Part shown: in pieces, positions 4,009-33,732 of the stretch
Position numbering within the stretch: position 1 is the stretch's first letter
Layout: every line of letters begins with the position of its first letter
NCBI GenBank assembly: GCA_017432285.1
Contig: JAFRJM010000004.1
Coordinates: 1-33,983, forward strand
DNA length: 33,983 nt
Direction: 5' to 3'
Origin: Oscillospiraceae bacterium
GTDB taxonomy: Bacteria; Bacillota; Clostridia; Oscillospirales; Ruminococcaceae
Notes under the pieces: generated by a model
Told to the model about the DNA's origin: nothing
What the model saw: the letters and a program-made list of their open reading frames with translations, nothing else
Database searches by the model: none
Position numbers and translations under genes: made by a program

Positions 4009-5226
4009 TTAATATATCAGGCCATATTTTTTTGACAATCCCTCAAGTGTATCCCTATCTATGTTTCCTTCATACAGAGCTCTACCCTGATAGCTCTTCA
4101 GCATCTTCTCCAGGACCTTCGGATCATCGCACACGATACACAGAGGCTTCTCCATTGCATACATGTTATCCGTGAGCAGTTCTGCATCCGCCAGAGAGTT
4201 CAGCTTTACAGATATGAATGAAGAAGGACTCTCATTCTCTGTTTCTATTGCTTCCGGAAGATCTTTGTTGACTTCAAGGATGTTGCCGCATGGCTCTGAA
4301 GGATCTATCTCGAACACATGCTTCTCTGTCGCACAGATGATCTTATCTTTGACTTTGGGATCCGGCGCTATCAATTCAAGACCGCCAAGGCTTGTTCTGA
4401 TCGTGCTGATATATCTCTCATCTGTTCCGCAGCACCCTCCGAACAGCTGAACGCCGCATTCCGCATAAAGAGGGATACACTCCTCAAACTCCGTCGGCTC
4501 GCAGTTGTATACCGTCTTGCCGTTGACCATCTCCGGCTTTCCGGCATTAGGTTTGGCAGCGAGAGGTATCTCAGCATATCTGGACAGTTTTTTCAGGGGT
4601 CCTACCATGTCCTTAGGCCCTACCGAGCAGTTGAGTCCGAAAACGTTTGCTCCCATGGACTGCATTATGACCAGAGCAGCCTCTACATCTCCTCCGGTGA
4701 GAGTCTTTCCGTTCTCATCGCAGGTAAAAGACACTATGACCGGCTTGCTGCTGTATTTCTTTACCGCTGTTATTGCTGCGCGGGCATCGGACAGAGTCAT
4801 CATGGTCTCGATGACATATAGGTCCACTCCCGCTTCCTCAAGGCCTTTCACCTGTTCCTCATATGCTTTGAGAAGATCATCGAACGTCGCATAACCCAGA
4901 GGCGTAACGAACAGCCCGGTAGGAGCGATATCACCGGCAACGAGAGCTTTACCTTCTGCCGCTTCCTGTGACAGCTTGGCAAGCCTCCTGTTGTACTCCG
5001 CGGTCCTGTTGAAAATGCCGTTCTCTTCCAGTTTTATCATGTTGCCGCCGAAGGTAGGTGTATACACGACATTGCTGCCAGCAGCAATATACCTTTTCTG
5101 CAGTTCGATTATGGCTTCGGGATTATCCAAAAGCCACTGCTCCGCGCATACTTCTCCGGTGAATCCCACCTTCTGAAGTTCCGTTCCTGTAGCCCCGTCC
5201 AGAATAAGGGGCAAATATACTTCCAT
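4009..5226 (-). CDS. Homocysteine S-methyltransferase-domain protein
   Basis: Residues 1-285 form a BHMT/MetH-type methyltransferase barrel, with the N-terminal LILDGATGTEL motif and the three zinc-binding cysteines Cys200 (GLNCSVGP), Cys265 and Cys266 (GGCCGT). The zinc activates a thiol, normally homocysteine, for methylation. Residues 286-405 are an extra C-terminal part that I cannot assign. It is not a MetH pterin domain of full size, and no corrinoid domain is fused. The gene starts one base after the stop of the RACo-like gene, so the two are co-transcribed. With a corrinoid protein encoded divergently, it probably takes methyl groups from methyl-corrinoid and passes them to homocysteine or another thiol. 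This is inference from context. Confidence 0.85.
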   Translation of the reverse strand: MEVYLPLILDGATGTELQKVGFTGEVCAEQWLLDNPEAIIELQKRYIAAGSNVVYTPTFGGNMIKLEENGIFNRTAEYNRRLAKLSQEAAEGKALVAGDIAPTGLFVTPLGYATFDDLLKAYEEQVKGLEEAGVDLYVIETMMTLSDARAAITAVKKYSSKPVIVSFTCDENGKTLTGGDVEAALVIMQSMGANVFGLNCSVGPKDMVGPLKKLSRYAEIPLAAKPNAGKPEMVNGKTVYNCEPTEFEECIPLYAECGVQLFGGCCGTDERYISTIRTSLGGLELIAPDPKVKDKIICATEKHVFEIDPSEPCGNILEVNKDLPEAIETENESPSSFISVKLNSLADAELLTDNMYAMEKPLCIVCDDPKVLEKMLKSYQGRALYEGNIDRDTLEGLSKKYGLIY

Positions 5227-5227
5227 A

Positions 5228-6772
5228 TTATCCTCCGAACATCATGTTTGAGACATATAGACCGTTGAAATCGCTGTACGATGACAGCTCTATGTATCTG
5301 CATCTGCCGCACAGTTCCGCCAGTTCGGAACCTGCATCCTGTGATACTGCGGCTCTGGCAGCTCCCTTGAGGGATGTGTTTCCGCACGGCACGCATCTGT
5401 TTCTGAAACCTTCGGGTATCATGCCGATATCCGCAGCGCTTGAAACATCCATAAGAGTTCCGAATCCTCCGGCAAGATATACCGTATCCACCTGGCTCTG
5501 ATCAAGCCCGCATTCCCTGAGAAGTATCTCTATTCCGGCAGCAAGAGCTGCCTTCGCCATCTGTATCATCCTGATATCCTTGGCTGTTATGAATACACTG
5601 CTGCCCAGATACAGCATGCCGTTCTCATTTTCGTCCTCTGTGTATCCTCCCATATAGATATCCGTCTCCGACGGAGGCAGGAATCTTCCTGTCGTATCCA
5701 CGATGCCCATCTTAAGCAGTACCGATACAAGATCTATTATTCCGGATCCACAGATACCTTTTGGTGCAGTATTTCCTATTGTGGAATACCTTATTCCCTC
5801 TTCAGTGAGGGAAACATGATCTATGGCGCCGTCCGTACCTGTCATTCCGCACTCGATATTACCTCCCTCGAATGCAGGACCGCTTGCAACAGAGCAGCAT
5901 GTGATGCTGTCACCGTTTATGAGCGCCATCTCGCCGTTAGTACCGATATCTATAAGGAGGGCGGTCTCATCTTTCTCCATCCTGTGCCTTAGATACAGCA
6001 GGCCTGCAGTGAGGTCTCCGCCGAAATACCCCGCAACACATGGCATGAGTTCCGCGGTTATCTCGTCGTCCAGTTTTACATACCTGTCCTCACCTTTGAA
6101 TAAAGAAGCAGGTTCGAAAGGATAAACAGTGATAGGATACGGATCCACACCTGCGAGGATATGCTGCATTATGGTGTTTCCGCCAACAGTTACTCTTCCC
6201 GGTACCGGGAGCCCGTTCGCGCTGCAGATCTTCCTAATCATTCCCGCAAGCTGGCGTCTCAGCATTCCTGACGATTCCGCAAGACAGTTGTTCTTTCTGA
6301 TATACTCGGATCTGGATATGACATCCCTTCCAGATGAGGACAATGCATTCAGTTCGGTAAGTTCAAAGAGCTTTCCTTCCATGCAGACAGCTGCACTGAC
6401 TGCAGTAGTTCCAAGGTCTATGGCAACATAGTCTGAAGAAAGCACAAGATCCTCTATGCGGTTATCTGTCTTTATCTCTCCGGCAGCCTCTGCCCTGCTC
6501 AGAACTGTTATATCTCTGTCGAGGCAGTACTGGCAGGATCTAACTGTGGAGACTATTCCGTCGCATTCGATCTCCATTTCGCACTTGCCGCAGAATCCAG
6601 CTCCGCCGCAGTCCGATGGAATATTCATTCCTATATCGTGCAGGAAAGCAAGCAGAACAGTTCCCTTTTCTGCTGCGTATGATCCGGATTGAGTTTTGAC
6701 GATAACTGTATCCAAACCTGATATTTCTCCGTTTAAAGCGCTGAAATAGTCATATTTGTGTAAATATAACAT
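5228..6772 (-). CDS. RACo-like reductive activator of corrinoid proteins (2Fe-2S ferredoxin + ASKHA domain)
   Basis: This 514-residue protein has an N-terminal [2Fe-2S] domain with Cys55, Cys61, Cys64 and Cys80 (C-x5-C-x2-C spacing). It is followed by an actin-like ATPase domain starting at IDLGTTAV (phosphate loop Asp119). These domains match the reductive activators that return inactive Co(II)-corrinoid to Co(I) in methyltransferase systems. The protein is shorter than canonical RACo, with little room for a middle linker domain. The start is uncertain. The ATG at 6772 has an in-frame stop two codons upstream and its only good AAAGGAG lies about 30 bases away. A TTG at 6715, just before the ferredoxin domain and preceded by GGAG, is an alternative. 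It is first in a minus-strand unit with the homocysteine-methyltransferase-like gene. Confidence 0.88.
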   Translation of the reverse strand: MLYLHKYDYFSALNGEISGLDTVIVKTQSGSYAAEKGTVLLAFLHDIGMNIPSDCGGAGFCGKCEMEIECDGIVSTVRSCQYCLDRDITVLSRAEAAGEIKTDNRIEDLVLSSDYVAIDLGTTAVSAAVCMEGKLFELTELNALSSSGRDVISRSEYIRKNNCLAESSGMLRRQLAGMIRKICSANGLPVPGRVTVGGNTIMQHILAGVDPYPITVYPFEPASLFKGEDRYVKLDDEITAELMPCVAGYFGGDLTAGLLYLRHRMEKDETALLIDIGTNGEMALINGDSITCCSVASGPAFEGGNIECGMTGTDGAIDHVSLTEEGIRYSTIGNTAPKGICGSGIIDLVSVLLKMGIVDTTGRFLPPSETDIYMGGYTEDENENGMLYLGSSVFITAKDIRMIQMAKAALAAGIEILLRECGLDQSQVDTVYLAGGFGTLMDVSSAADIGMIPEGFRNRCVPCGNTSLKGAARAAVSQDAGSELAELCGRCRYIELSSYSDFNGLYVSNMMFGG

Positions 6773-6830
6773 ATTTCAGTCCGCGATAACAGTTGTTTGC
6801 TCCTTTTTTGCTTCTGCTTGGCTTGCATCG

Positions 6831-6839
6831 TGATATAAT
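6831..6839 (+). promoter_or_regulatory. Extended -10 promoter for the DUF2284/corrinoid methyltransferase genes
   Basis: TGA-TATAAT is a perfect -10 (6834-6839) with an upstream TG, 37 bases before the DUF2284 start and within the 103-bp divergent intergenic region. No convincing -35 is seen at 17 bp. A shared operator with the divergent RACo-like gene is possible but none was recognised. Confidence 0.5.
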
Positions 6840-6875
6840 AAATTATTACTATTTTTATACTTCCGGAGAACCGAT

Positions 6876-7421
6876 ATGGAATTCAACAACGAACTGTACA
6901 AAAAAATAGAGGCACTTGCGGCTGAAGTAGGGTTTGAGACAGCACCTCTCGATCCTTCCATCCTGGAAGCAGATCCCAGAGTCCGTGATATGTGCGCGGA
7001 GAACAAATGCCGCCGCTACAATGCATCCTGGTCCTGCCCCCCGGCCTGCGGTTCCCTTGAAAATCTTGAAAAAAGGATGAAAAAGTATTCAAGCGGGATA
7101 CTTCTCGGAACTATCATCCCTGTCAAAAGCAGGACTGATGTACAGGCGTGGAAGACCGGTGAGGACTCTCACAAAGATCATTTTGATACCCTCGTGAGAC
7201 AGATCCGCACGTTTGACAAGGACATCATGCCGCTCGCGGCGGGAAGCTGCACCAGATGCGCAAAGTGCACATACCCGGATTCGCCGTGCCGTTTCCCTGA
7301 TAAGCTTTATCCTTCGATGGAAGCCTGCGGACTGTTCGTCAGCCGTATCTGCAAACAATGCGGAATGACATACAACAACGGTCCCGGAACTATAACCTAC
7401 TTCTCATGTATCCTTTTCTGA
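6876..7421 (+). CDS. DUF2284 cysteine-rich metal-binding protein
   Basis: This 181-residue soluble protein has at least twelve cysteines. One cluster is at Cys40, 45, 54 and 58. A ferredoxin-like group is at Cys125-x2-Cys128-x2-Cys131-x6-Cys138. Others are at Cys151, 159, 162 and 178. The pattern fits DUF2284 'predicted metal-binding' proteins, probably carrying Fe-S clusters. Its function is unknown. It is followed 12 bases later by the UroD-corrinoid fusion gene, and family members often lie beside corrinoid methyltransferase genes. A role in electron supply, corrinoid handling or sensing is plausible but unproven. The ATG lies 7-8 bases after a CCGGAGAA ribosome binding site. Confidence 0.8.
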   Translation: MEFNNELYKKIEALAAEVGFETAPLDPSILEADPRVRDMCAENKCRRYNASWSCPPACGSLENLEKRMKKYSSGILLGTIIPVKSRTDVQAWKTGEDSHKDHFDTLVRQIRTFDKDIMPLAAGSCTRCAKCTYPDSPCRFPDKLYPSMEACGLFVSRICKQCGMTYNNGPGTITYFSCILF

Positions 7422-7433
7422 AAGAGTCATTTT

Positions 7434-9155
7434 ATGCAGCCCAAAGAAATACTGTTTGAATTACTGAAAAAAGACGGCAGGCCCGATCGTCAGCTGAGCA
7501 ACTTTGAAGCTTTCAAGTTCGTGGGGGATCCTGTCAGCGCTTATCTGCGCGGTGGCAGAAAAAAAGGCACCAGATACCTGGACAAATGGGGCGTTACTTA
7601 CGACTTCCCTGAAGACGCTCCCGGCGCCATGCCGATCTCAACACCCGACGTCAGGGTGCTGAAGGATATAACCCGCTGGCGTGAACAGGTGAAGGCACCG
7701 GATATAGCCTCCAACTGCAAGGAAGGCTGGGAAGAAGCCCGCGCACGCGCGAAAGAAGTCAGCGGTGATTCCTATCTGGCTACAGCTATGATGGTGACGG
7801 GCGTGTTCGAGACACTTCACAATCTTATGGGATTTGAAGACACGCTCACCGCTTTCTATGAGCACCCCACAGAGATGCACGAGCTTATAGATTACATCGC
7901 CGACTACAGGCTCGAATATGAGAAGATGCTTGTGGAGAACCTGCATCCCGATGCTGTTCTCGCCCACGATGACTGGGGCACAAAAGATTCGCTCTTTATG
8001 AACCCGGACACATGGAGAGAATTCCTGAAGGAACCGTACAGACGGCTGTATTCCTATCTGCGTGAAAACGGTGTTGTCGTTATCCACCACGCAGACTCAT
8101 ATATGGCTCCTATCGTGGAAGACATGGCCGAGATAGGCATAAACGTCTGGCAGGGAGTCCTCCCGGAGAACGATATCCCCGCTATCCAGTACCGTCTTGA
8201 CGGCAGAATGGTCCTTATGGGAGGCATCGGTGCCGCGATAGACAGAGAAGATTCCACAGAGGAAGAGATCCGCAGCTATGTGAGGATCGTTCTGGAAAAC
8301 TGCTGCCCGGGCGGACACTTCATTCCCTCCGTGACATACGGAGGACCTGCTTCCGTTTATCCGCATGTATTCCCGATCATCGAGGATGAGATACTCAGGT
8401 ACAACAGCATCCTGCATATCAACGCTCCGCGCAGACCGCTGCCTGTACACAGAGTCAAAGGCGAGGAGGAAATCGCAGCTAAGACAGAGAAAAAGTTCAC
8501 AGAGCAAAAAGCAGAAGATCTTTCTGTTCTGGATAAACTGGCTGACTCCCTGCGCAAAGGAAGAAACAGAGCGGTTCTCAGCGGTGTGGATGAAGCCCTT
8601 GAAAAAGGATACGATCCGCAAGCCATAATCTCAGACGGTCTGGTAAAAGGAATGATGCTCCTGGGTGAAGATTTCACAGCAAGCAGGGCCTTCGTTCCCG
8701 AGATGCTTGTAGCCGCAAAATGTATGACCTCAGCTCTTGATGTCCTGAAGCCTCTTCTCAAGGGAGACACTATCCAGAAAAAAGGCAGGATATGTCTGGG
8801 CACTGTCAAAGGAGATATGCACGACATCGGCAAGAACCTTGTAAAGATAATGCTTGAAGGCGGCGGTTTTGAAGTCGTTGATCTCGGTGTTGATGTTCCT
8901 GCAGAAAGATTTGTTGAAACAGCTATAGATGAAAAATGCGACATCATTGCCTGCTCTGCTCTTCTCACGACAACTATGAGTGAGATGAGGAGGGTTGTGG
9001 AATTATCAGTGGATCGCGGCATAAGAGATAAGGTCAAGATAATGGTAGGCGGAGCACCTGTTACTCAGGCATTCTGCGATGAGATCGGAGCAGACGGATA
9101 CGCAGATGACGCTGCTCAGGGCGTGCTGCTTGCTGAAAAGCTTATGAACAAATAA
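7434..9155 (+). CDS. UroD-family methyltransferase fused to a corrinoid-binding protein
   Basis: Residues about 1-340 resemble uroporphyrinogen-decarboxylase-family methyltransferases, the family that includes MtaA and several demethylases. Residues about 358-573 are a complete MtaC/MetH-type corrinoid protein: a helical cap (AVLSGVDEAL...GMMLLGEDF) and a B12 domain with GDMHDIG, in which His463 would be the lower cobalt ligand. Normally the two activities are separate proteins. At the expected zinc site the UroD part reads IHHADSY (217-223) instead of His-x-Cys, so it does not look like a zinc-thiolate methyltransferase and more likely demethylates a substrate. It lies 12 bases after the DUF2284 gene, and a strong terminator follows. 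Cytoplasmic. Confidence 0.88.
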   Translation: MQPKEILFELLKKDGRPDRQLSNFEAFKFVGDPVSAYLRGGRKKGTRYLDKWGVTYDFPEDAPGAMPISTPDVRVLKDITRWREQVKAPDIASNCKEGWEEARARAKEVSGDSYLATAMMVTGVFETLHNLMGFEDTLTAFYEHPTEMHELIDYIADYRLEYEKMLVENLHPDAVLAHDDWGTKDSLFMNPDTWREFLKEPYRRLYSYLRENGVVVIHHADSYMAPIVEDMAEIGINVWQGVLPENDIPAIQYRLDGRMVLMGGIGAAIDREDSTEEEIRSYVRIVLENCCPGGHFIPSVTYGGPASVYPHVFPIIEDEILRYNSILHINAPRRPLPVHRVKGEEEIAAKTEKKFTEQKAEDLSVLDKLADSLRKGRNRAVLSGVDEALEKGYDPQAIISDGLVKGMMLLGEDFTASRAFVPEMLVAAKCMTSALDVLKPLLKGDTIQKKGRICLGTVKGDMHDIGKNLVKIMLEGGGFEVVDLGVDVPAERFVETAIDEKCDIIACSALLTTTMSEMRRVVELSVDRGIRDKVKIMVGGAPVTQAFCDEIGADGYADDAAQGVLLAEKLMNK

Positions 9156-11442: not shown

Positions 11443-12942
11443 TCAATCCAGATCTTCTCCATTGGAGGCTATGACCTTTTTATACCAGAAGAAAGAATCC
11501 TTACGGTAGCGGTCATATGTTCCGTTACCATCGTCATCCGCATCTACGTACACAAAGCCGTAGCGCTTTGACATTGACACCAGTGAACAAGACACAAGGT
11601 CTATGCATCCCCATGGAGTGTAACCGATGACGTCGACTCCGTCTTCGATCGCATCTGCAATGGCCTGGATATGGCTGCGCAGATATGAGATACGGTAATC
11701 GTCGTGGACTGTTTTATCCTCACCCAATGTTTCCAAGGCTCCAAGTCCATTCTCTACGATGTAGATCGGCAGGTGGAACCTGTCTCTCAGATCGTTGAGA
11801 GAGATCCGCATTGCAGTCGGATCGACCTGCCATCCGAAGTCGCTGGTCTCCAGATAAGGATTGTGCAGCGTGCGGATGAAAGAACCTATCCTCTCCTGCC
11901 TCTTCGGATCCGCAGTGGCAATGGAAGAAAGATAATAACTGAGAGAAATGAAATCCACTTTTCCTTCAGCCAGGATCTCCTCATACCCATCGTACCACTT
12001 GATCTCGATGCCGTTCCTTCTGTAGTAAGACCGGATCCAGGCAGGATAGCTGCCTCCAGCCATGACATCACAGAAGAACATGTTGAACTCATGTTCGTCA
12101 TGTGCCCGCAGGGCATCCTGCGGCGAAGGAGTTTCAGGGTAAATATGATGCAGGTTGAACATGTTCCCTATCAGACACTGAGGAGCGTGTTCGTGGGCAT
12201 ATTTCACGATCATCGCACTTGCGATGAACTGATGATGCAGCGCCTGGTGAGATGCATTCTCCCATCTCTTTGCCATGTCTGCCGGAAGAGGCGCGAAAGG
12301 ACGGAAGCCCTTCGGGATCTCAAATTCACCGTCATTGCGGTCAAGGATGATGCCGCCTCCGAGATAAGGAACAGCGCACACCATATTGATCTCATTAAAG
12401 GTCAACCAGTATTTAACTTCATCCTTATACTCGTCGATAATAAACTTCAGATATTTATAGCAGTATGGAACAATCTCCGGAGAGACCCATCCGTCATACT
12501 TCTCTACGAAGCCTATCGGAAGTTCATAGTGGATCATTGTCACCAGAGGCTCGATGCCGTATTTATGCAGTTCGGCAAACACATCATGATAGAACTGCAC
12601 TCCCTCGGGATCCGGAGTCTCCTCCAGCCCGGTCGGGAAAAGTCTGGTCCAGGAGATCGACATACGGAATGACTTGAATCCCATCTCAGCCATAAGGGCG
12701 ATGTCCTCTTTATAGCGGTGGAAGAAATCGTTGCCTCTGCGGTTTGGGAAGTTCATCGTAGCTTCTTCAGCTTTTGCCCTCTCCAGGTCTTTTTTCAGCA
12801 TGAAGTTGCAGGGTGTCTTGGGACCACGGAAAAAGACATAATCCAAATGGGAAAGGCCCTTTCCGTCCAGGCACCTGCCTCCTTCAATCTGGGCGGCGGA
12901 AGTTGCGCCGCCCCATAAAAAATTCTCAGGAAATCTTGCCAT
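11443..12942 (-). CDS. GH1 6-phospho-beta-glycosidase
   Basis: This 499-residue glycoside hydrolase family 1 enzyme starts with FPENFLWGGATSAAQIEG. It has the acid/base TFNEIN (Glu184) and the nucleophile YIVENG (Glu397). SMSKRYG at 456-462 is the loop that binds the 6-phosphate in phospho-beta-glucosidases, so it acts on PTS-phosphorylated disaccharides in the cytoplasm. It is the third gene of a minus-strand unit after MupG-like and EIIBC, starting 6 bases after the EIIBC stop with its ribosome binding site (CAGGAA) overlapping the EIIBC end. It should release a glucose-6-phosphate-type sugar from the imported substrate. Confidence 0.92.
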   Translation of the reverse strand: MARFPENFLWGGATSAAQIEGGRCLDGKGLSHLDYVFFRGPKTPCNFMLKKDLERAKAEEATMNFPNRRGNDFFHRYKEDIALMAEMGFKSFRMSISWTRLFPTGLEETPDPEGVQFYHDVFAELHKYGIEPLVTMIHYELPIGFVEKYDGWVSPEIVPYCYKYLKFIIDEYKDEVKYWLTFNEINMVCAVPYLGGGIILDRNDGEFEIPKGFRPFAPLPADMAKRWENASHQALHHQFIASAMIVKYAHEHAPQCLIGNMFNLHHIYPETPSPQDALRAHDEHEFNMFFCDVMAGGSYPAWIRSYYRRNGIEIKWYDGYEEILAEGKVDFISLSYYLSSIATADPKRQERIGSFIRTLHNPYLETSDFGWQVDPTAMRISLNDLRDRFHLPIYIVENGLGALETLGEDKTVHDDYRISYLRSHIQAIADAIEDGVDVIGYTPWGCIDLVSCSLVSMSKRYGFVYVDADDDGNGTYDRYRKDSFFWYKKVIASNGEDLD

Positions 12943-12948
12943 TTATTC

Positions 12949-14439
12949 TTATTCCTGTCCGTCGATAATATCAGCTTCCTCGTCCTTGTACAGGATCATA
13001 GCAGCGACGAAAGCGATGACAACGCCAATCACGAGGCAGATGATCATCTTCTTAAGGTCAGCCAATGGATCCGGTACAGGTGCAGGGTTGATGAACATGC
13101 CGAACGTGAAGATGTTCGGAGGACCACCCGCATAGGAACCAACATTCATCAGAGCTGCGATAAGGCCGGCTACACCGGAACCGATCATAGCAGCATACAG
13201 AGCCTTCTTATACTTGAAGGTGATACCGTACAGACCAGGCTCGGAGATTCCGGGGATCGCATCAGAGAAAGCACATGACAGAGCCAGTGATCTGCGTTCG
13301 GAGTTCTTTGCCTTGAGCGCGACAGCCAGGCAGACTGCAGCCTGAGTGTACTGGAACAGGAATCCGGCGACAGAAGTCAGAGGGTTCTTGCCCATCTGCT
13401 GGCCTACAGCCATTGCCACGGACATCAGGTTGAAGTGCATTCCTGTGATGACGATGTACGGATAGATAGCTGAGAACAGACAGATCAGTATCGCGCCAAT
13501 CCCGGGGATATGGAACAATGTGATCAGCAGTCCAGCAAACGCGGTGGAGAGCCTGTGGCTTATCGGTGCGAGGACCAGCAGTCCCAACGGGGCCATGATA
13601 AGGAGCTCCAGTGTCGGAACAAGAACGAAACGGACGTTCTTGGGGATATATTTGTTCAGGAGCTTTTCTACAAAGCTCATGACGAAGACACACACGATGA
13701 CCGGAATAATGGTGCTTGTGTAATCTCCAGGATAAATACTAAGACCAAACAGTGAACCAGCAGAACCGGTTCCAGGAACTACCGTTGGAGGACCGCCTGG
13801 ATTGGGAACGGTATATCCTGCTCCCTCTTTGACAAGTTCAAGGAATGTAGGATGGATAAGTATAGCGCCCATCAGCATTCCCATGGCGGTCTTGACGTTG
13901 AATCTCTTCGCAGCTGCATAGCCTACGAAGATCGGGAGGAAGCAGAACGCTACGTTGTAGATCCATGTCAGGGTCGCGATCGTGGGATTGTCAGCTGGAA
14001 CCAGCTTGAAGTTGACCAGCATCATAACGATACCCTGCAACATACCGCAAGCAAGCAGTGCCGGTAAGATCGGGAAAACGCAGGATACGATAGCCGGGAA
14101 GATGGAGCCAAGGATCTCCTTGAAGCTCTTTTTCTTCTTTGTCAGCTCCGGATCCAGATTCTCGTCGATAGCGGCTGCTCTTTCGATCCCGGTCGCTGCG
14201 ACAAATGCATCATATACTTCGTTGATGTCGTTGCCGATGATGACCTGGACCTGATCGCCGACCATCTGTGCGCCGATAACGCCGATTTTCTTCAGTTCGT
14301 CCAAATTGACTAGGCTGGTGTCTTTCGGTGTGATGCGCAGCCTGGTGAGACAGTGCGCGGCATGGGCGATGTTATCCTTGCCGCCAACAAGCTCGACTAT
14401 ACGGGAAGCAATAGTCCCAAAGTCTTTTGTTTCTGCCAT
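12949..14439 (-). CDS. PTS transporter subunit EIIBC, glucose/beta-glucoside/MurNAc family
   Basis: Residues 1-90 are an EIIB domain with the phosphorylated Cys30 in AHCLTRLR. Residues about 105-485 are a multi-spanning EIIC channel, with SIFPAIVSCVFPILPALLACGMLQG and a GIHxxx-like GMHFNL segment. It lacks the fused EIIA domain common in beta-glucoside permeases; a separate EIIA gene lies divergently at 15938. It takes up and phosphorylates a sugar at the membrane using PEP-derived phosphate via HPr and EIIA. It sits between the MupG-like gene (65 bases upstream) and the GH1 gene. Specificity cannot be read from sequence; a MurNAc-containing or beta-glucoside disaccharide is suggested by the neighbours. 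Confidence 0.9.
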   Translation of the reverse strand: MAETKDFGTIASRIVELVGGKDNIAHAAHCLTRLRITPKDTSLVNLDELKKIGVIGAQMVGDQVQVIIGNDINEVYDAFVAATGIERAAAIDENLDPELTKKKKSFKEILGSIFPAIVSCVFPILPALLACGMLQGIVMMLVNFKLVPADNPTIATLTWIYNVAFCFLPIFVGYAAAKRFNVKTAMGMLMGAILIHPTFLELVKEGAGYTVPNPGGPPTVVPGTGSAGSLFGLSIYPGDYTSTIIPVIVCVFVMSFVEKLLNKYIPKNVRFVLVPTLELLIMAPLGLLVLAPISHRLSTAFAGLLITLFHIPGIGAILICLFSAIYPYIVITGMHFNLMSVAMAVGQQMGKNPLTSVAGFLFQYTQAAVCLAVALKAKNSERRSLALSCAFSDAIPGISEPGLYGITFKYKKALYAAMIGSGVAGLIAALMNVGSYAGGPPNIFTFGMFINPAPVPDPLADLKKMIICLVIGVVIAFVAAMILYKDEEADIIDGQE

Positions 14440-14504
14440 GTTTTTTTCCTTTCTAATCTCTATTCTTTAATTTTTTTATATCCTTCTCGGATATTGCTAA
14501 CTAA

Positions 14505-15668
14505 TCACGCTTGGATGAATCCGAAATTCACCCTGTATTTGAGGTAATCCAGCAGGAACATCTCTTCATCCCTGATCCTGCCAGCGTAGTTCATCGTCCC
14601 ATCGTTCCTTATTTTCGTTTTTACGATGTGGACCTCACCTTTGTAGCGGTTGATGTTGTCGTTGAGTATGACCACATCCCCTGACTCAAAGTACTCCTTT
14701 TCACATGGTCTTGGAGGTATCGGCGTGAACCTGAAGTCAAACCTCCCCCAGCGGGAACGGATAATGGTATGGATATATTCGCTGGTTGTATGTTTGTTGA
14801 AACCGAACAGCAGTTCCTTTTCCGAATCCGCCAGATCGCTCACCGTCTCTATGGTCAGCGGGATCCTCTCGATATCACCTATGGGTATCTCGTTCCGGAT
14901 GCCCGGGAAATAAAACGGCCTGTCTTCCGCAAATACATACATCTCTTTAATGGTATCTGCGATCTCCTTCAGTTCTTCTTCCGAAGCAAAAGCATTACCG
15001 ATAATAACTTCGTCACATCCCAATGCATAGACATGCCTCAGCTGCAAACCGATAGGAAGATCCCTGTCCTCTTCTATAGTTGGAAGGCCGTCGCTCACCG
15101 GCCAAGGTCCGTGTGCTCCTTTGACATTGGATGAAATGAATATCTGAGTACTTATACCTTCGCTCCTGAAGAACTGGTTTGTCTCAAGAACGTCTTCGCT
15201 GCCGGCTCCTGAATTTCTAAGGGGATAAAAGTTGTAGGATCCGATTATCCTGCTCTTGTCCCCACCCATCTCAAGGATACGTTTCACTGCGGGAACGAGG
15301 CTGGCGTTAAGCTGTACGCCTAAGCCCTGGTCATTGTTAACGATCGCCACATCCCGGTCGTCGTTGAACATCAGGTCAAGACGCAGGACATCAAGCCCCA
15401 TATTCTTGAATACGGAAAGATCTTCAGGTGTAGCCCCGATCTGCATGAAGAAACGGGCGTTACAGTCACCGTATACTTCCATCCCGTAACGGTGCGCCAC
15501 ATCACAGAGATCGCTGAAATATTTGATGATATCCTCAATGGAACCTTCAACAGAGAACAGACTTGTAAATACCTTCGTGAAGCCGTATTTCTGCGCCAGC
15601 TGAAGGTAGCTCTCGATCTCTTCCGCTGTCTCCTGTTCCGGATATAATGAAACTCCTAGCTTGATCAT
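14505..15668 (-). CDS. mupG: MupG/DUF871-family TIM-barrel protein (6-phospho-N-acetylmuramidase-like)
   Basis: This 387-residue protein begins MIKLGVSLYPEQ, the normal N-terminus of DUF871/MupG proteins. It has a TIM barrel up to about residue 250 and a C-terminal beta domain (SGDVVILNDNINRYKGEVHIV). Characterised MupG cleaves MurNAc-6-phosphate-GlcNAc imported by a PTS. The start at 15668 is set by GGAGGG 8 bases upstream. A longer open frame to 15848 has no ribosome binding site and runs through the regulatory region. It is the first gene of the unit with EIIBC and GH1. No murQ etherase is visible, so the real substrate may not be MurNAc. Confidence 0.85.
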   Translation of the reverse strand: MIKLGVSLYPEQETAEEIESYLQLAQKYGFTKVFTSLFSVEGSIEDIIKYFSDLCDVAHRYGMEVYGDCNARFFMQIGATPEDLSVFKNMGLDVLRLDLMFNDDRDVAIVNNDQGLGVQLNASLVPAVKRILEMGGDKSRIIGSYNFYPLRNSGAGSEDVLETNQFFRSEGISTQIFISSNVKGAHGPWPVSDGLPTIEEDRDLPIGLQLRHVYALGCDEVIIGNAFASEEELKEIADTIKEMYVFAEDRPFYFPGIRNEIPIGDIERIPLTIETVSDLADSEKELLFGFNKHTTSEYIHTIIRSRWGRFDFRFTPIPPRPCEKEYFESGDVVILNDNINRYKGEVHIVKTKIRNDGTMNYAGRIRDEEMFLLDYLKYRVNFGFIQA

Positions 15669-15737
15669 TTTTACCCTCCATTTTTTTATTTTATCATTTT
15701 TAATGCACAGAATAATGTAGAATACGAGGCGTATGTT

Positions 15738-15754
15738 TTGTTCATGTTGAACAA
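15738..15754. promoter_or_regulatory. Candidate operator palindrome between divergent sugar genes
   Basis: TTGTTCA-TGT-TGAACAA is a perfect 7-bp inverted repeat with a 3-base centre, 70 bases upstream of the MupG-like start and about 185 bases upstream of EIIA. Its position suits a repressor of the divergent PTS genes. No regulator gene lies next to it, so the protein that binds is unknown. Confidence 0.4.
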
Positions 15755-15937
15755 ATATTTGCAGTTTTTCCGGCTCCAGCGTGCTCATATCCCTTTTTTC
15801 TGCAAAAGGTAAGAGAATGATAAGTATTTTCCTGTCAAAACAGTTCACAAACCAGGTGCCTGCGAGTAAAATGGATGTGTCCGTAAAACGTTATAGAGAA
15901 CGCTATCCTTACTATAGATAAAAGGAGCAAAACCACT

Positions 15938-16792: not shown

Positions 16793-18334
16793 ATGGGAAA
16801 ATATGATCTGATCGTAATCGGCGCCGGGAACGGAGGGCTGATGACAGCTTGCAGAGCGGCAAATCTCGGACTGAAAGTCCTGGTAGTCGAACGGCACAAT
16901 CTTCCGGGCGGAGCAGCCACCAGTTTTGTCCGAGGCCGCTTCGAATTCGATGCTTCTCTTCATGAGATCCCGGATTTCGGAGAGGGAGAGAATCGCGGTG
17001 AGCTGGGCCGTCTTTTCGATGAGCTTGGGATCGAAGCAGAAATGTACCCAATAAAAGATGCTTTCCGCTACATTGTCGAAAAAGACGGTGTTCGAACATA
17101 TGATGTCACTTTCCCCCACGGCATAAACAAAGTCATGGCAGTGATCGCCAAGGAGTGTCCTGACGATGTCCAGGCTGTGCAGGAATTCCTTCGTCTGGCA
17201 AGTGACATCGGAAAAGGATTAGCCTATCTTGGTTCTTCAAGAGGAAAACCTGATATGAATGTTCTGATAAATGAACACTCAGATTTCATGAAACTCATGT
17301 CACTTTCCGCGGGCGATCTTTTTAGAGAGCTTGGGATGAATCAAAAATGCCAGGATATCCTGTCCGCCTATTGGCCATATCAAGGAACAGATATTGACAC
17401 CGTAGATGCCAGCCGCTACCTGATGATGGTCTCCGGGTATTTTGTTCATGGAGCTTATGTGCCAAAGATGCGCTCCCACGCCCTATCAGCTGCTATCGTT
17501 AGACGGGCCACCGAATTGGGATGCAACTTCTTATTCAACACGGAAGTCACTAAGGTCCTTACAAATAACGGCGCTGTATGTGGAGTTGAATTGGATGACG
17601 GTACGACCGTGGAAACAACAGCTATAGCTTCCAACGCTTTCCCGGAAGTCGTGTATTCTAAACTTCTGGATGACAAATCGCTCGTTCCGGAATTTGAATT
17701 AAAGAAAGCCAATGCCCGGGAATATGGCTTCCGTGCATTCAGTGTCTACCTTGGACTTGATGCACCTCCCGAGGAGATCGGGATAAAAGACTATACGATC
17801 TTCATCAGCTCTACAGCAGATTCAAGATCAATATGTGAAGAATCAAAAACACTGCACGGAAACGAGTATGCTCTGGATGTATGTTGCTTAAATATGGCAA
17901 TTCCTGACTGTACACCTGAAGGAACCACGCAGATGGTATTGACCATTTCATATACTGATGACGCCTGGGCAGATGTGACAGAAGAAAATTACATGGATAC
18001 AAAGCGTGCGGTTGCTGAACAGATGATTGACAATCTTGAACGCATAATGGGCTATAAAATACGTGAACATATCGAAGAGATTGAGATAGCCAGTCCTGTT
18101 ACCTTTGCCCGATACATGGGCTCTCCACAAGGTTCTATCTATGGCTACAGTTCACTAAAATGGGATGGCATGTCTTCAAGAACTCTTGCAGCTGGAATGG
18201 AACAAACTATACCAGGATTGTATTTTGTGGGGGGCCATGGCTCATCACTATCCGGTTACTTCCCTACCTATACGTCAGGAAATAAAGCAGCGTTCCAGAT
18301 AATGGGTTATGTGAGAGGAGGAGCAAGAAAATGA
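16793..18334 (+). CDS. Phytoene desaturase-like (CrtI family) FAD-dependent oxidoreductase
   Basis: This 513-residue protein starts with a dinucleotide-binding fold: GAGNGG at 10-15, then Glu33 in VVERHNLPGG, which binds the FAD ribose. It ends with the FAD-contacting segment PGLYFVGGHGSSLSGYFPTYTSG. This is the CrtI/retinol-saturase type of amine-oxidase-like flavoprotein, acting on C-C double bonds of hydrophobic substrates. No carotenoid genes lie nearby, so carotenoid synthesis is unlikely. Its stop overlaps the start of the next gene by 4 bases (ATGA), coupling it to an NAD(P)H-dependent iron-sulfur reductase that probably supplies or removes electrons. The substrate is unknown. Confidence 0.85.
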   Translation: MGKYDLIVIGAGNGGLMTACRAANLGLKVLVVERHNLPGGAATSFVRGRFEFDASLHEIPDFGEGENRGELGRLFDELGIEAEMYPIKDAFRYIVEKDGVRTYDVTFPHGINKVMAVIAKECPDDVQAVQEFLRLASDIGKGLAYLGSSRGKPDMNVLINEHSDFMKLMSLSAGDLFRELGMNQKCQDILSAYWPYQGTDIDTVDASRYLMMVSGYFVHGAYVPKMRSHALSAAIVRRATELGCNFLFNTEVTKVLTNNGAVCGVELDDGTTVETTAIASNAFPEVVYSKLLDDKSLVPEFELKKANAREYGFRAFSVYLGLDAPPEEIGIKDYTIFISSTADSRSICEESKTLHGNEYALDVCCLNMAIPDCTPEGTTQMVLTISYTDDAWADVTEENYMDTKRAVAEQMIDNLERIMGYKIREHIEEIEIASPVTFARYMGSPQGSIYGYSSLKWDGMSSRTLAAGMEQTIPGLYFVGGHGSSLSGYFPTYTSGNKAAFQIMGYVRGGARK

Positions 18335-19515
18335 GCAGCAAATATCTTAGCAATGTTCCTGTCGAACGGTTCATGCAGATCATACCCAGAAGAAGAGGAG
18401 TAATTGAAAAAGCTTCCAGCGAATTCCCGAGATATGAGTACAACGCCAATATACTTGCAAAAGAACTCCATCCAAAGATCCAGCATGTGATCATTAGCAA
18501 GATAGAAGATCTGTACGGTGCAAAACGCTACACACTGATCCCAGACGAAGAATCAGGGACAGAAAAGCTTGCCTATTTTAATGCAGGCCAATACATCAGT
18601 CTGCACCTGAGAATCGGAGATTCTGTTCTCACAAGACCATACTCTCTGTGTTCTTCTCCAAAGGAAGCTTTGGACGGGAAGTATCAAATTACCGTAAAGA
18701 CGATGAAAAATGGGTTTGCGTCGGAATATATCAATACTAATTTCCATGTTGGAACAAAAGTTGATATCTCTGCACCAGCTGGATTTTTCTATTACGAACC
18801 TCTCCGTGATCACAAAAATGTCCTCGGAATTGCAGGAGGCAGCGGTATAGCTCCGTTTTTGTCACTTGCAAAATCAATTGCCGACGGGACAAACGATTTT
18901 AATCTGACACTTCTTTATGGAAGCAGAACAGAAAAAGAGATCCTATTCAAGGATGAGCTTGACGATCTTGAGAAGCGCGGATGCCTCAAGGTGATCCATG
19001 TGCTATCTGACGAGGAGAAAGACGGATATCAGCATGGGTTCATAACCTCCGATCTCATCCAGAAGGAAATGCAGGACAGTTCAGTATTTGTCTGTGGCTC
19101 TCAGGGAATGTATGACTATATCCTAAAGGAAACAGAAAAACTTGGGCTTCCACGCAAACAGGTGCGTTTCGATGCCTATGGTGAATATAAACTCACAGAC
19201 CGCGACAGACAGTATACACAGACACATAAAGATAAGACCTACCAGTTGACAGTTACAATAAAGGGCAATACTGTAACTGTTCCTGCCAGGTCTGATGAAA
19301 CAATTCTTGTAGCTTTCGAAAGGGCAGGTCTGGACGCTCCGTCAGGCTGCCGCAGCGGTGAATGCGGCTGGTGCCGTTCAAAGCTCATATCCGGAGAGAT
19401 CTATGCCTCTGAAAAGGTCGAAAGAAGGCGTCAGTACGATAGACTGGCTGGATATATCCATCCTTGCTGCAGTTTCCCGTGCAGCGATTGTCAGATATCC
19501 ATAAACTGCGAATAA
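18331..19515 (+). CDS. FAD/NAD(P)-binding reductase with C-terminal [2Fe-2S] ferredoxin domain
   Basis: This 394-residue protein has a ferredoxin-NADP reductase module with the FAD motif RPYS (102-105), the nucleotide-binding GGSGIAPF (169-176) and the CGSQGMYDY segment near 255. A plant-type ferredoxin follows (Cys340, Cys345, Cys348 and Cys379 or 380). The order matches phenol-hydroxylase/CDP-6-deoxy-reductase type electron-transfer proteins. Residues 1-45 are an extra N-terminal part that I do not recognise. It overlaps the CrtI-like gene by 4 bases and so probably serves as its electron partner. A terminator follows. Confidence 0.88.
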   Translation: MSSKYLSNVPVERFMQIIPRRRGVIEKASSEFPRYEYNANILAKELHPKIQHVIISKIEDLYGAKRYTLIPDEESGTEKLAYFNAGQYISLHLRIGDSVLTRPYSLCSSPKEALDGKYQITVKTMKNGFASEYINTNFHVGTKVDISAPAGFFYYEPLRDHKNVLGIAGGSGIAPFLSLAKSIADGTNDFNLTLLYGSRTEKEILFKDELDDLEKRGCLKVIHVLSDEEKDGYQHGFITSDLIQKEMQDSSVFVCGSQGMYDYILKETEKLGLPRKQVRFDAYGEYKLTDRDRQYTQTHKDKTYQLTVTIKGNTVTVPARSDETILVAFERAGLDAPSGCRSGECGWCRSKLISGEIYASEKVERRRQYDRLAGYIHPCCSFPCSDCQISINCE

Positions 19516-29434: not shown

Positions 29435-30769
29435 TCATTCGTAGTCAGTTGACTCGCTGATCTGAAGCGAACCGTCTTTGCCACTCTGCCAGATCTCATA
29501 AAGATGTTCCTGACCCTGGCTGTCGTGCAGAAGGATCCCGTATGTCGGAAGATCCATAAGGTACGGAGTAGTCAGAACAAGCGGGGCGTCCGGAGTCAGC
29601 GAGTTAAGGTGATAAAGCTCCTCAGTGATCCAGTGCGGCCCGGTCTCATTCATCTCATCCATGCTGAGGCTCACGACGCTCAGATCCCTTACAGTTTCGT
29701 TTGCAGTAATGCGCATCTGGATGCACTCATCACTTCCCGTGAGCATACACTCCTCGAACCTAGGGTATTCGTCCATAACGCTCCCGTCTTCTTCCGTGAT
29801 GGAGATAGGATATGATTTCGGGACATAACCCATACTGTAAACGCCATATCCTATATAATCCAGCTGCTCAAAATCAGTGATGATACCATCTTCATCTGTG
29901 GTTACGATACCGAACATCGGCTGAAGGATATCAGACATTGCCATATCCCCTTCTCCCGGGATAGCCACATAATCATAGAAGACTGCTTCAAGCGGATGAT
30001 CATTGTCTGCATACTTCATTAGCACGACATAGAGCTCATCTTCATAGAATGTCGTGTAGAAATCAACGCCCTCAAGTTCCTGGATCATAAAGAAATCTGC
30101 AGCGCTGCACCAGCTGTATGCGAAAAATGTGCTGTTCTTCTTTCTCAGAGACACCGTCTCATCATGGTCACGCGGAGCGACATCATTGTCCCTGCAGAAG
30201 ATCCAGGTGTTTGTATCTCCGGCAAGAAGATTGTATCCAAACACCCAGTAACCGATGGCAGACTCGCCGTTTCCAGGCTCACGCATAAGTAGGAGGTCCT
30301 TTCCTTCCGCCCTGCACGCCAGAAACTGGAACATAGCCGTCTCACCAATATAATAATCCATATTCCCCTCAAAGAGGTCTTTGGAGACCTCATACGGGAT
30401 GAGAGTTATGAGATCTATCGACCCGTCCTCATCTTCCATAAGCGTAGTGACTCTGTAATCGCAAAGCGCAAATTCACCGTCATCACGTGTGATCACAGCC
30501 TTGAGCTCATCATCGAATTCGATCGTAGTCGTGACCTCATCGTCCCTGATGACGCCCATAGGACACTGTCGCCATTCTCCAGTAAGGAACTCAACGGCTG
30601 TTTTCTGATCATTAAGAGCCTTTGCATACTCCTTAGGCGCAACTACAGGATCCGGTTCAGGAACCGGGTCCGGCTGCGGAGCAGGTCCCACGGGAGTGTG
30701 CTCCTGACCGCAGGATGCGAGGCATAACACAAGACATAAAAGAACTATAGAAGCTAAAATCTTCCGCAT
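29435..30769 (-). CDS. Lipoprotein of unknown function, partner of the exported PLP enzyme
   Basis: This 444-residue protein has a signal peptide and the lipobox LASC (lipidated Cys20), then a Pro-rich linker (PAPQPDPVPEPDPVV) and an acidic, beta-rich body with no domain that I recognise. Strings such as DDELKAVITRDDGEFALCDYRV, MFQFLACRAEGKDLLLMREP and DNHPLEAVFYDYV hint at repeated beta-sheet modules. It should be anchored on the outer face of the membrane. It starts 15 bases after the stop of the class V aminotransferase-like lipoprotein gene, so the two are co-transcribed and probably act at the same place. Confidence 0.8.
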   Translation of the reverse strand: MRKILASIVLLCLVLCLASCGQEHTPVGPAPQPDPVPEPDPVVAPKEYAKALNDQKTAVEFLTGEWRQCPMGVIRDDEVTTTIEFDDELKAVITRDDGEFALCDYRVTTLMEDEDGSIDLITLIPYEVSKDLFEGNMDYYIGETAMFQFLACRAEGKDLLLMREPGNGESAIGYWVFGYNLLAGDTNTWIFCRDNDVAPRDHDETVSLRKKNSTFFAYSWCSAADFFMIQELEGVDFYTTFYEDELYVVLMKYADNDHPLEAVFYDYVAIPGEGDMAMSDILQPMFGIVTTDEDGIITDFEQLDYIGYGVYSMGYVPKSYPISITEEDGSVMDEYPRFEECMLTGSDECIQMRITANETVRDLSVVSLSMDEMNETGPHWITEELYHLNSLTPDAPLVLTTPYLMDLPTYGILLHDSQGQEHLYEIWQSGKDGSLQISESTDYE

Positions 30770-30784
30770 AATCAGGTCCTCTTT

Positions 30785-32284
30785 TTAATATTCAGGCACT
30801 GCCTGAGAGTAGAACTGCAGTGAATAATTCGCCGCATCTATTGCATCTGAAAGCATTGCGAGGAATTCATCGACTTCCTCTTCCGTATTGTAGATACCGA
30901 AACTGATACGGATCATTCCCGGTGTATTGACATCGACACAGTTTTCAAATCCCTCTGCCTCATCGTCTGAAATGCCCATAAGCCGCCACACATACGGATG
31001 GGCACAGAACGCTCCTCTTCGTGTAGCTACTCCGAAGTTCTCGGCAAGCGTTCTGGCAAGTACGAAGGAGTTAAGATCCGTGAAGTTGAACGTCACGACA
31101 CCGACGCGGTCCTCAAGATTGTCTGTATCCCCGTAAAGGATGATGTTGGGCATATCTTTCAGCCCGTCCACAAGTTTGTGGATAAGAACTTTTTCGTGTG
31201 CTTCGATGTCGTCAAATCCGATCTCCTGAAGCACTCTTATCGCTTCACCGAGTCCGACAACTCCGGCGTAGTTCGGTGATCCTGCTTCGTATGAATCCGG
31301 AGCGTACTTATATGACTGCTTATAGTCCCTGACGATATTGACGATACCGCCGCCGTAGAACTCAGGCATGTGCTCGTTGAGGATCTCCCAGGGTCCGATG
31401 ACAGCTCCGCCGCCGTACGGGGAATACATCTTGTGAGCGGAGAATACGAAAAAGTCGATATCCTCCTCCGGAGTTTCGCCCTTCATGGAGAACTGGCGGT
31501 GAGCAACTATCTGCGCACCGTCCACGATGATCTTCGCGCCGTGTTCATGAGCCATCTTCGCCACTCTGTGGACATCGGTGACATAACCGGTGACGTTGGA
31601 AGCTGCCGTGACACAGACATATTTGACTTTGCCTTCGTTCTGGGTAAGCAGTCTCTCGATATCTTCATAGATGATCCTCCCCTGCTCATCCACTTCTGCG
31701 TAGATGACGTTGCAGCGCTCACGCCAGGGCAGGTCGTTAGCATGATGCTCTATCCTGGTGGCAAGAACAAGATCGTCCTCGCTCTCTACCAATGCGGAAG
31801 CAAGCTTGTTCAGGCCGTCTGTAGTAGTGTTGACATAGAAACAGGTATATATGTTGGGATCCGCTCCGACAAAGTCCAGGACCACTTCTCTTGTATCATT
31901 GTAGAGGTCAGTGGAATGGTTGGATTTCTGTGAGAATCCGCGGCCGATGGAGCCGTACATGTTCATCTCCCTGTCCACCGCGTCCATGACGGGTTTGAGC
32001 GGAGGTGTAGTCGCAGCATTGTCGAAGTTGATCAGCGGACGCATCGTTCCATCTGACAGTTCCATCGGTTCTTCCACACCGACAACATAATCGCGGATGT
32101 TGTCTATCGTGTAGGTTACCGGCTCATCCGAAGATTCTTCTTTATCTTCAGGTGTAACTTCAGCGGTCTGCTCCGCCTCCACGGCCGGCTCATCTGCAGG
32201 CTTCTGTCCGCATCCGGAAAACGTTCCGCAGATCATAAGCATGATCAGCAGTAAGCACAATAGTTTTCTCACAGTCTTTGCCAT
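30785..32284 (-). CDS. Lipoprotein class V aminotransferase / cysteine desulfurase-like PLP enzyme
   Basis: This 499-residue protein has an N-terminal signal peptide with a lipobox-like TFSGC (Cys25) and an acidic linker to about residue 55. A complete SufS/Csd-type PLP fold follows: NFDNAATTPP at the start, EHHAND (His180 region), VDGAQIVAH with cofactor-binding Asp255, FSAHKMY with the PLP lysine Lys285, and RRGAFCAHP with Cys427 at the desulfurase cysteine position. Cytoplasmic cysteine desulfurases make persulfide for Fe-S clusters. A secreted, lipid-anchored version with all catalytic residues kept is unusual. Possible roles are extracellular breakdown of cysteine or a related amino acid, sulfide release, or epimerase-type chemistry. 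It is the first gene of a two-gene unit with another lipoprotein. Confidence 0.88.
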   Translation of the reverse strand: MAKTVRKLLCLLLIMLMICGTFSGCGQKPADEPAVEAEQTAEVTPEDKEESSDEPVTYTIDNIRDYVVGVEEPMELSDGTMRPLINFDNAATTPPLKPVMDAVDREMNMYGSIGRGFSQKSNHSTDLYNDTREVVLDFVGADPNIYTCFYVNTTTDGLNKLASALVESEDDLVLATRIEHHANDLPWRERCNVIYAEVDEQGRIIYEDIERLLTQNEGKVKYVCVTAASNVTGYVTDVHRVAKMAHEHGAKIIVDGAQIVAHRQFSMKGETPEEDIDFFVFSAHKMYSPYGGGAVIGPWEILNEHMPEFYGGGIVNIVRDYKQSYKYAPDSYEAGSPNYAGVVGLGEAIRVLQEIGFDDIEAHEKVLIHKLVDGLKDMPNIILYGDTDNLEDRVGVVTFNFTDLNSFVLARTLAENFGVATRRGAFCAHPYVWRLMGISDDEAEGFENCVDVNTPGMIRISFGIYNTEEEVDEFLAMLSDAIDAANYSLQFYSQAVPEY

Positions 32285-32361
32285 TGAAAGGTCGTCCTCC
32301 TAAAAATCAATAATCCTCAAAGATTTTACATTATTACACTCGTATTCACAAGATAATGACA

Positions 32362-32734: not shown

Positions 32735-33372
32735 TTATCTATTTTCAACAAGCAATGATGGATCTGCGTCCTTCAATGAGAACCGGTTCCTTTTGCAGTA
32801 TGCAGATTCTCCGCATAGGAAATGACTGTGATAATCCTCCGTCAGCTCAGAAGGATACGGTGAATCAGGGAGCCTATCCGGCTGTGAAAACCTGAGAAGC
32901 CAGTCGTGGTCTTTTTTTGATATTTGATACACCATAGTCACATCTGATGATCCGACATGCAGCAGGTCTGTGATCGCGTACACAGTCTTCTTCCCCTTGC
33001 TAAACTCAAATCTTCCTACCGTGACACCATATGCCAGTACGCCGTCCGTAGTAAGATCGGGTGTGCTTTTAGTCTCGATATCTTCAGTCTCTTTTGAGAA
33101 TGTGATCACACCTGCACAAAATGAGATCTTTTCATAATGAAGTTCAGGAAACGCCTTTCTGAATTCGTCTGTGACGAAGTATATCTCCTCGTCATCCCAT
33201 TCGTCTCCGGCCTGCTCCATGCAGGAGTTCATCTCCTCTCGTGTTTCAAAGGCGATGTCACCGACGATTATCTTTCCGTCTTCATTGAGATATTTAAGCA
33301 ACGTATGGAGCAGTTCTATCTTCTGTTCATCTGTGAGATGATGCATAGCATAGCATGAGCATTCACTTTGGA
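32735..33372 (-). pseudogene. Class I SAM-dependent methyltransferase, 5' end lost
   Basis: From YAMHHLTDEQK the sequence matches the second half of YrrT-like methyltransferases (post-motif II, then LLKYLNEDGKIIVGDIAFETREEM and the final beta hairpin). The SAM-binding glycine-rich motif and everything before it are missing. The reading frame continues only a few codons upstream of the ATG at 33346 before a TGA. Residues after about 90 form an extra C-terminal part that I cannot assign. The 5' part is replaced by the end of a PcfB-type gene, so this is the remnant side of a recombination junction. Confidence 0.72.
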
Positions 33373-33732
33373 TGAATACTCATTGAATGCCGCATCCATC
33401 ACTTCCGCATCTCTGGCTTTGAAGAAGACCAGATATCTCGGGGGATCTATCGACTTATCCTTCTTCAGAGCGAAATCAATGTTGTATTTCTTTGCTACTC
33501 TTTCAAAGGACTTGATGTTCTGATCCGTCACCTCGATATTGGTAAGCTGACTGTTCTGTTCCATCAACTGACCTACTGTCTGCTTCCCATGCGTCAGAGT
33601 GGGATTTCTCTGCTTATGATCCTGCAGGTATTTCCTGATCGCTGCCTGCAGAACTCTTGTTGTGATCCTTGCCGTTTCTTTTCCTGTACGGATCGATAAG
33701 GCAACGATCTGACTGTTGATCTCATCCTGCAT
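33316..33732 (-). CDS. PcfB/DUF3801-family conjugative-element protein, 3' end replaced
   Basis: Residues 1-125 match PcfB-type proteins of Firmicutes integrative conjugative elements: TGKETARITTRVLQAAIRKYL, KSFERVAKKYNIDFALKKD, PPRYLVFFKARDAEVMDAAFNEYSSK. PcfB works with the coupling protein in conjugative relaxosome processing. The last residues (AHAMLCIISQMNRR) are read out of frame through the methyltransferase sequence, so the native C-terminal tail is missing. AAAGGAGG precedes the ATG. No coupling-protein gene follows, although one is usual downstream. Confidence 0.8.
   Translation of the reverse strand: MQDEINSQIVALSIRTGKETARITTRVLQAAIRKYLQDHKQRNPTLTHGKQTVGQLMEQNSQLTNIEVTDQNIKSFERVAKKYNIDFALKKDKSIDPPRYLVFFKARDAEVMDAAFNEYSSKVNAHAMLCIISQMNRR

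Follow-up and report, generated by a model that had tools for sequence, protein, structure and literature searches.

To our knowledge, cysteine desulfurases are intracellular enzymes that hand their sulfur to a protein partner and keep free sulfide from building up. A review of these enzymes (PMC8300815) states that type II desulfurases rely on partner proteins and that, where acceptors are lacking, the persulfide is given off as sulfide in a reducing environment or grows to polysulfide on an adjacent thiol. The words secreted, extracellular and periplasm do not occur in the review's main text, and among the open-licence papers listed by our searches, titles and abstract openings yielded no description of exported desulfurases or of dockerin-linked class V enzymes.

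The window analysed here is a whole stretch of 33,983 nucleotides from an Oscillospiraceae bacterium, and it encodes a class V PLP enzyme that the earlier note had described as extracellular, lipid-anchored and of the cysteine desulfurase type, with a full SufS/Csd domain (Table 1). The aminotransferase class V profile PF00266 spans residues 85–474 of this protein (E 1.3e-82; 278.1 bits against a gathering threshold of 21.5; profile positions 1–371 of 371), and the best PDB match by sequence was SufS (5xt5, E 3.3e-59). The window enzyme shares with the SufS/CsdA type II desulfurases the class V fold, the PLP lysine, the aspartate, glutamine and histidine, the carboxylate arginine and the catalytic cysteine. 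Exported proteins, distant cytosolic relatives (hereafter far sisters) and SufS-like proteins all have the residues H180, N230, D255, Q258, K285, R422, C427 and R459. Invariance of the predicted PLP lysine K285 and persulfide cysteine C427 is what would be expected of a cysteine desulfurase, and these two residues and the cofactor aspartate D255 are intact, as the earlier note had it.

Table 1. Features of the exported class V PLP enzyme gene and its surroundings in the window.
Feature	Coordinates	Strand	Basis
Predicted lipoprotein of the cysteine desulfurase type (exported class V PLP enzyme)	30785..32284	-	499 aa from ATG; PF00266 and SufS profile matches and family alignment
Signal peptide to lipobox Cys25, codons 1–25	32210..32284	-	Sequence and simple signal rule
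Shine-Dalgarno AGGAGG	32296..32301	-	11-nt spacer to ATG; coordinates counted from ATG
Lys285 codon, expected PLP Schiff base	31430..31432	-	Invariant in alignments; aligns with SufS lysine region; coordinates counted from ATG and confirmed in the sequence
Cys427 codon, expected persulfide cysteine	31004..31006	-	Exported 79/79; cytosolic sisters 30/30; SufS-like 9/9
Cys449 codon, exported-clade-specific cysteine	30938..30940	-	Exported 79/79; cytosolic 0/30 and 0/7
Downstream lipoprotein-like gene	29435..30769	-	15-bp gap after enzyme gene; without family match

The assignment to a full SufS/Csd domain did not survive comparison with curated scores. The window protein reached 288.8 bits with the SufS model TIGR01979, under the cut-off of 475.1, and falls in a distinct clade that has invariant residues of its own; the exported homologues L076 and L077 likewise fell short of this cut-off, and none of the NCBIfam models reached its cut-off for the window protein, L076, L077 or the cytosolic homologue L148. 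The window enzyme differs from SufS/CsdA also in its signal peptide and its extra C449, and its stretch from C427 to R459 exceeds that of the aligned SufS rows by 17 residues. Position 114 is glycine in the window enzyme, whereas it is histidine in 29 of 30 far sisters and in six of nine SufS-like rows. Selenocysteine lyase SclA (NF040779) belongs to the same fold superfamily, but the window enzyme, which unlike SclA is predicted to be exported, scored 141 bits with this model, far under its cut-off of 525.

The N-terminus of the enzyme runs from positive charges through a hydrophobic core to TFSGC, the lipobox-like motif reported earlier, which contains Cys25. These 25 residues are followed by approximately 35 acidic low-complexity residues and then by the class V PLP domain. 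The signal and lipobox are at odds with the cytoplasmic location of SufS; the n-region, h-region and lipobox cysteine of a lipoprotein are all present in the window protein, whose signal was called by a simple hydropathy rule together with family evidence. The first 100 codons contain ten ATG, GTG or TTG codons, with a Shine-Dalgarno sequence at codon 1 only; the next ATGs occur at codons 15 and 17, within the hydrophobic core, and then at codons 74, 81 and 100. A cytoplasmic form made from a later start, which by the earlier note would have refuted its reading, is therefore unlikely. Compared with its homologue L005 over 439 codons, the gene shows mismatches of 0.114, 0.064 and 0.501 at codon positions 1, 2 and 3, a pattern indicating that the reading frame is under purifying selection and the protein is maintained.

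The earlier note had preferred a Sec lipoprotein to a Tat substrate. The signal of the window protein lacks an RR motif, in contrast to Tat-exported class V enzymes such as the actinobacterial members L054 and L077. TatC was found in none of the nine genomes of the window's genus, a count that weighs little where genomes are incomplete (at least 90% completeness is reached by two of the nine), and LspA was found in seven of the nine, the window genome included, most of them incomplete. Together these counts are consistent with a Sec lipoprotein, and a location outside the membrane, with a putative lipid anchor, is a well-supported prediction for the enzyme.

For the wider family, we scanned a species-level genome collection and took the best 80 of 148 relatives; with the window protein and L004 from the same genus, and after removal of three duplicates, the alignment set comprised 79 distinct proteins. 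Three of these (L031, L040 and L059) have a cut 5′ end or are chimeric, leaving 76 full-length members. Using a rule that combines a net positive start with an 11-residue hydrophobic stretch, its threshold set after a first look, we identified a signal in 75 of these 76; the remaining one, L077, has a twin-arginine lipoprotein signal slightly under the threshold. Among homologues taken as cytosolic, one of 44 passes the rule (L097). The rule assigns 44 members as lipoproteins (43 and L054) and 31 as carrying plain signals, eight of which have a dockerin motif. Four of these eight were scanned with Pfam, where Dockerin_1 was above its cut-off in L047, L048 and L076 and slightly short of it in L069. 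Big_2 domains occur in L058 and L075, and the signals of both actinobacterial members are of the twin-arginine type. Such variable anchoring, by lipobox, plain signal, Big_2 or dockerin, fits selection for an outside location and not for one mode of attachment, and the family evidence makes predicted export a much stronger reading than a lone signal peptide would. In L067:789-2969, L073:2163-4343 and L082:3985-6186, the PLP domain lies in frame behind an exported-looking domain in an apparent two-protein fusion, ordered as exported-looking domain, hydrophobic segment, basic tail, second hydrophobic signal-like segment and PLP domain; this architecture was read in L067 and L082 and assigned to L073 by similarity.

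Dockerin and Ig-like fusions would also suit a binding role, and an exported enzyme would need PLP supplied outside the cell, both of which could point to a surface protein that keeps the fold but is non-catalytic or moonlights. We consider this very improbable, as the exported alignment holds 172 near-invariant positions, the checked catalytic residues included, and the frame is under purifying selection.

We placed 27 exported proteins in a tree of 45 rows, where they form one clade (support 100/99) and cytosolic homologues branch earlier; this topology shows a single origin for the predicted export. The cytosolic protein L115 branches immediately before the exported clade (100/99), preceded by L190, L184/L187 and L185/L189, the order of these being less certain (91/73, 95/77). 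A branch with 100/100 support separates the exported clade and these nearer cytosolic proteins from the far sisters. L115 and L184-L190 (six of the latter seven in one genus) show 44–54% identity; all eight have R177 and D320, and six have G114. They differ in lacking a signal peptide (judged by eye), C449 and C425. Within the family of L115, one of three genomes contained a near-outgroup sequence, namely L115 itself. The far sisters show approximately 36–43% identity, the N-terminal extension included, and mostly share the FCAHPY/FCAQPY motif. They differ in having no signal peptide, no C449, C191 or C148, and, in 27 of 30, a CxC formed by C425 and C427.

Across 76 exported proteins, 29 positions are near-invariant with residues that 29 far sisters rarely have, among them G114, D156, R177, A261, D320, Y332, Y339, R423, A425, W433, C449 and T454; at two of these sites the far sisters have histidine (position 114, 29 of 29) and cysteine (position 425, 27 of 29). 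L115 already has G114, D156, R177, D320, Y332 and Y339, and it lacks R423, A425, W433, C449 and C191. Together with the residues of the other nearer cytosolic proteins, this pattern suggests that part of the change preceded export, whereas the catalytic-loop changes, including C449, arrived with it.

C449 lies 22 residues after C427 and is present throughout the 79-protein set, as well as in six further exported loci (three of them near-copies), and in none of the 37 cytosolic proteins compared. Its position on the catalytic loop makes it a candidate adjacent thiol to C427. A direct swap of the far sisters' C425 for C449 is unsupported, because the seven near cytosolic proteins and L115 have neither cysteine. 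C191 and C148 occur in 78 and 69 of the 79 exported proteins, respectively. We regard a C148-C191 disulfide as unlikely, given that C148 is lost in ten of the 79 with C191 kept and that the single loss of C191 keeps C148. A C-terminal aromatic residue, Tyr or Phe in 79 of 79, is a strong mark of the family but was rejected as an invariant one, since L176 and L180, two additional members, have Leu at the C-terminus.

Several of the 29 positions lie beside active-site motifs, so the substrate may differ from plain cysteine. As an alternative, the exported enzyme would act on some amino acid other than free cysteine that also has its amino group free, for example selenocysteine, cystine, a cysteine sulfoxide or an S-substituted cysteine, and C427 would protonate or accept the chalcogen differently. 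The newly acquired R177, R423 and D320 would be in keeping with this, as would a class V desulfurase of Lentinula edodes that reportedly acts on both cysteine and S-methyl-cysteine sulfoxide (PMC4460571). Conservation of R459, H180, N230, Q258, K285 and C427 speaks against it, and we judge a new substrate to be rather unlikely, though it is the alternative that we take most seriously.

The genes around the cytosolic and exported proteins also differ. DsrE2 (PF13686), a persulfide acceptor of the DsrE sulfurtransferase group, occurs in ten of 18 far-sister contexts (L130-L147, mostly 18 kb) and lies at most three ORFs away in nine; Pfam confirmed it in all six of the far-sister contexts tested. 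It was found in none of the eight contexts of nearer cytosolic proteins (L148, L191-L197) and in none of the 82 exported contexts (1.0 Mb; three hold duplicate proteins). Its presence beside far sisters makes it probable that the wider lineage started out donating sulfur in the cytosol, a link that the nearest relatives no longer display; because these relatives lack DsrE2, C425 and C449, the connection to a sulfur relay is indirect. In L133, L136, L138 and L140, DsrE2 and the gene of the cytosolic sister are flanked by Mn-catalase/rubrerythrin-like genes, which were scanned with Pfam in L133 and L138.

The lipoprotein-like gene downstream of the window enzyme, on the same strand and perhaps co-transcribed with it, had been put forward in the earlier note as a possible partner. 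The neighbourhood survey gave this idea no backing, since the gene was found in no other locus compared. Across the stretches compared, the largest neighbour cluster besides the enzyme itself encodes an ABC ATPase and is represented in 11 of 79 loci. Of the 77 close same-strand neighbours, 58 were scanned with Pfam, and no family had more than four members; the other 19 are near-copies or short or doubtful ORFs. A conserved operon partner was therefore rejected. Whereas SufE, SufU or CsdE and, for SufS, SufBCD accompany the type II desulfurases, no gene recurs beside the window-type enzymes in these stretches. Related HAD-type genes lie near the enzyme in five loci (L070:5827-6927, L083:3603-4715, L073:4617-5753, L067:3397-4533 and L032:3272-4474), on either side and, in four, within approximately 0.43 kb; the HAD profile was above cut-off in L067 and short of it in L070. 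A cysteine synthase-like gene, named by eye, lies 1.6–6.5 kb from the enzyme in four loci. Both types were too rare to be taken as partners.

These results bear on whether the enzyme could be an exported persulfide donor to an extracytoplasmic acceptor, for instance the downstream lipoprotein. The proximity of that same-strand gene would suit such a role, and several neighbours at other loci look exported by eye; with the lipoprotein found in no other locus compared and no family recurring, we find a dedicated donor improbable.

We lean towards the enzyme being a Sec-exported, lipid-anchored PLP protein that acts like a cysteine desulfurase outside the membrane and releases sulfide without a partner. 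A desulfurase reaction would account for the invariant residues most economically. PLP would be bound via K285, and the amino acid taken as the external aldimine would be free and extracellular, in all likelihood L-cysteine or a compound close to it; sulfur would then move onto C427 as a persulfide, with release of alanine. The gut is a reducing environment, and there, with no acceptor protein, the persulfide would be discharged as sulfide, possibly when C449, which sits on the same enlarged loop, attacks it and ambient thiols then reduce the resulting C427-C449 disulfide. The analysis establishes the gene, its signal features, fold family and residues, the clade and the one origin of export, and from these we infer the location, the substrate, the sulfide release and the role of C449. 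As no neighbour recurs, the enzyme probably completes its turnover alone, and the occurrence of DsrE2 near far sisters yet in no exported context fits release and not relay. Set against this absence of a recurring partner, the partner dependence of type II desulfurases, as given in the review (PMC8300815), counts against partner-free release. Export by Sec implies that PLP would be bound outside, and the twin-arginine signals of the actinobacterial members could allow export of the enzyme already loaded with PLP.

The enzyme is sparsely and patchily distributed across genomes, occurring in two of 297 genomes of the window's GTDB family, both of the window's genus, and in six of 300 genomes of the family of G942. 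Among the best 80 of 148 records, the title mentions a ruminant host in 26, and RUG/RUI labels, which denote rumen genome sets, are carried by 34, so that 60 of 80 have ruminant-type labels; the other 20 do not. Two records have isolate-style names, Erysipelotrichaceae bacterium NK3D112 (L016) and Ruminococcaceae bacterium P7 (L076). In the tree, the window protein and L004 sit inside the Erysipelotrichaceae part (99/92, 100/95), and the actinobacterial pair (100/95) nests among Clostridia (99/99 with L049). The genus mate G170 carries L021 (an Oscillospiraceae record), and G942, from the same order, carries L067 (a Ruminococcus record). We read these placements as apparent transfer of the enzyme gene between gut bacteria of different classes. 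Carriage by phages or plasmids was rejected: viral contigs contained no close member and only 18 distant relatives (22–31% identity), and plasmids contained no close member, with one record at 38.5% (E limit 1e-60).

The clustering of the gene with Erysipelotrichaceae genes, together with the 54.6% completeness of the metagenome-assembled genome, could also be taken as a sign of an artefact, that is, a wrong start codon or a mis-binned or chimeric contig. RecD2 on the window contig is 71–77% identical to that of two same-genus genomes and 37–38% identical to that of five of six Erysipelotrichaceae-type genomes, which argues against mis-binning. Among the remaining genomes of the genus, a RecD2 of approximately 40% identity is the sole copy in four and none occurs in two, as would fit a foreign contig shared by those with the close copy. 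The only Shine-Dalgarno sequence precedes the signal-bearing ATG, and exported homologues occur in dozens of separate assemblies, including the two with isolate-style names, so the enzyme is real regardless of the bin; we regard an artefact as scarcely credible.

Elsewhere in the window, the genes at positions 4009-9155 probably form a cluster for corrinoid methyl transfer, with a homocysteine S-methyltransferase, a RACo-type reactivator, DUF2284 and a fusion of URO-D with a B12-binding domain. MupG 6-phospho-N-acetylmuramidase, PTS EIIBC and a GH1 enzyme are adjacent at 11443-15848 (-) and perhaps take up and recycle sugars that are beta-linked or derive from the cell wall, and a flavin amine oxidoreductase adjoins a FAD/NAD/2Fe-2S reductase at 16793-19515 (+). 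The contig end, upstream of the enzyme gene, encodes a DUF3801 (PF12687) protein (33316-33732 (-), E 1.2e-33) of a family known from conjugative elements, which was seen in no other locus compared.

As a history for the family, we tentatively propose that a cytosolic desulfurase-type enzyme became, through a single origin of export, a hitherto undescribed extracellular PLP family found mostly in ruminant-gut Clostridia, Erysipelotrichaceae and Actinomycetota. The CxC would have been lost in the cytosol, C449 would have arisen with export as the resolving partner of C427, and the product would be a self-contained releaser of sulfide or selenide, in some members mounted on the cellulosome. Rumen sulfide affects animal health and trace-metal availability, and an exported, partner-free branch of these enzymes would, if the proposal is correct, constitute a new route to extracellular sulfide in the rumen. 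It would also raise the rarely asked question of how a Sec-exported bacterial enzyme is loaded with PLP, and the dockerin-borne form would place a non-carbohydrate enzyme on the cellulosome.
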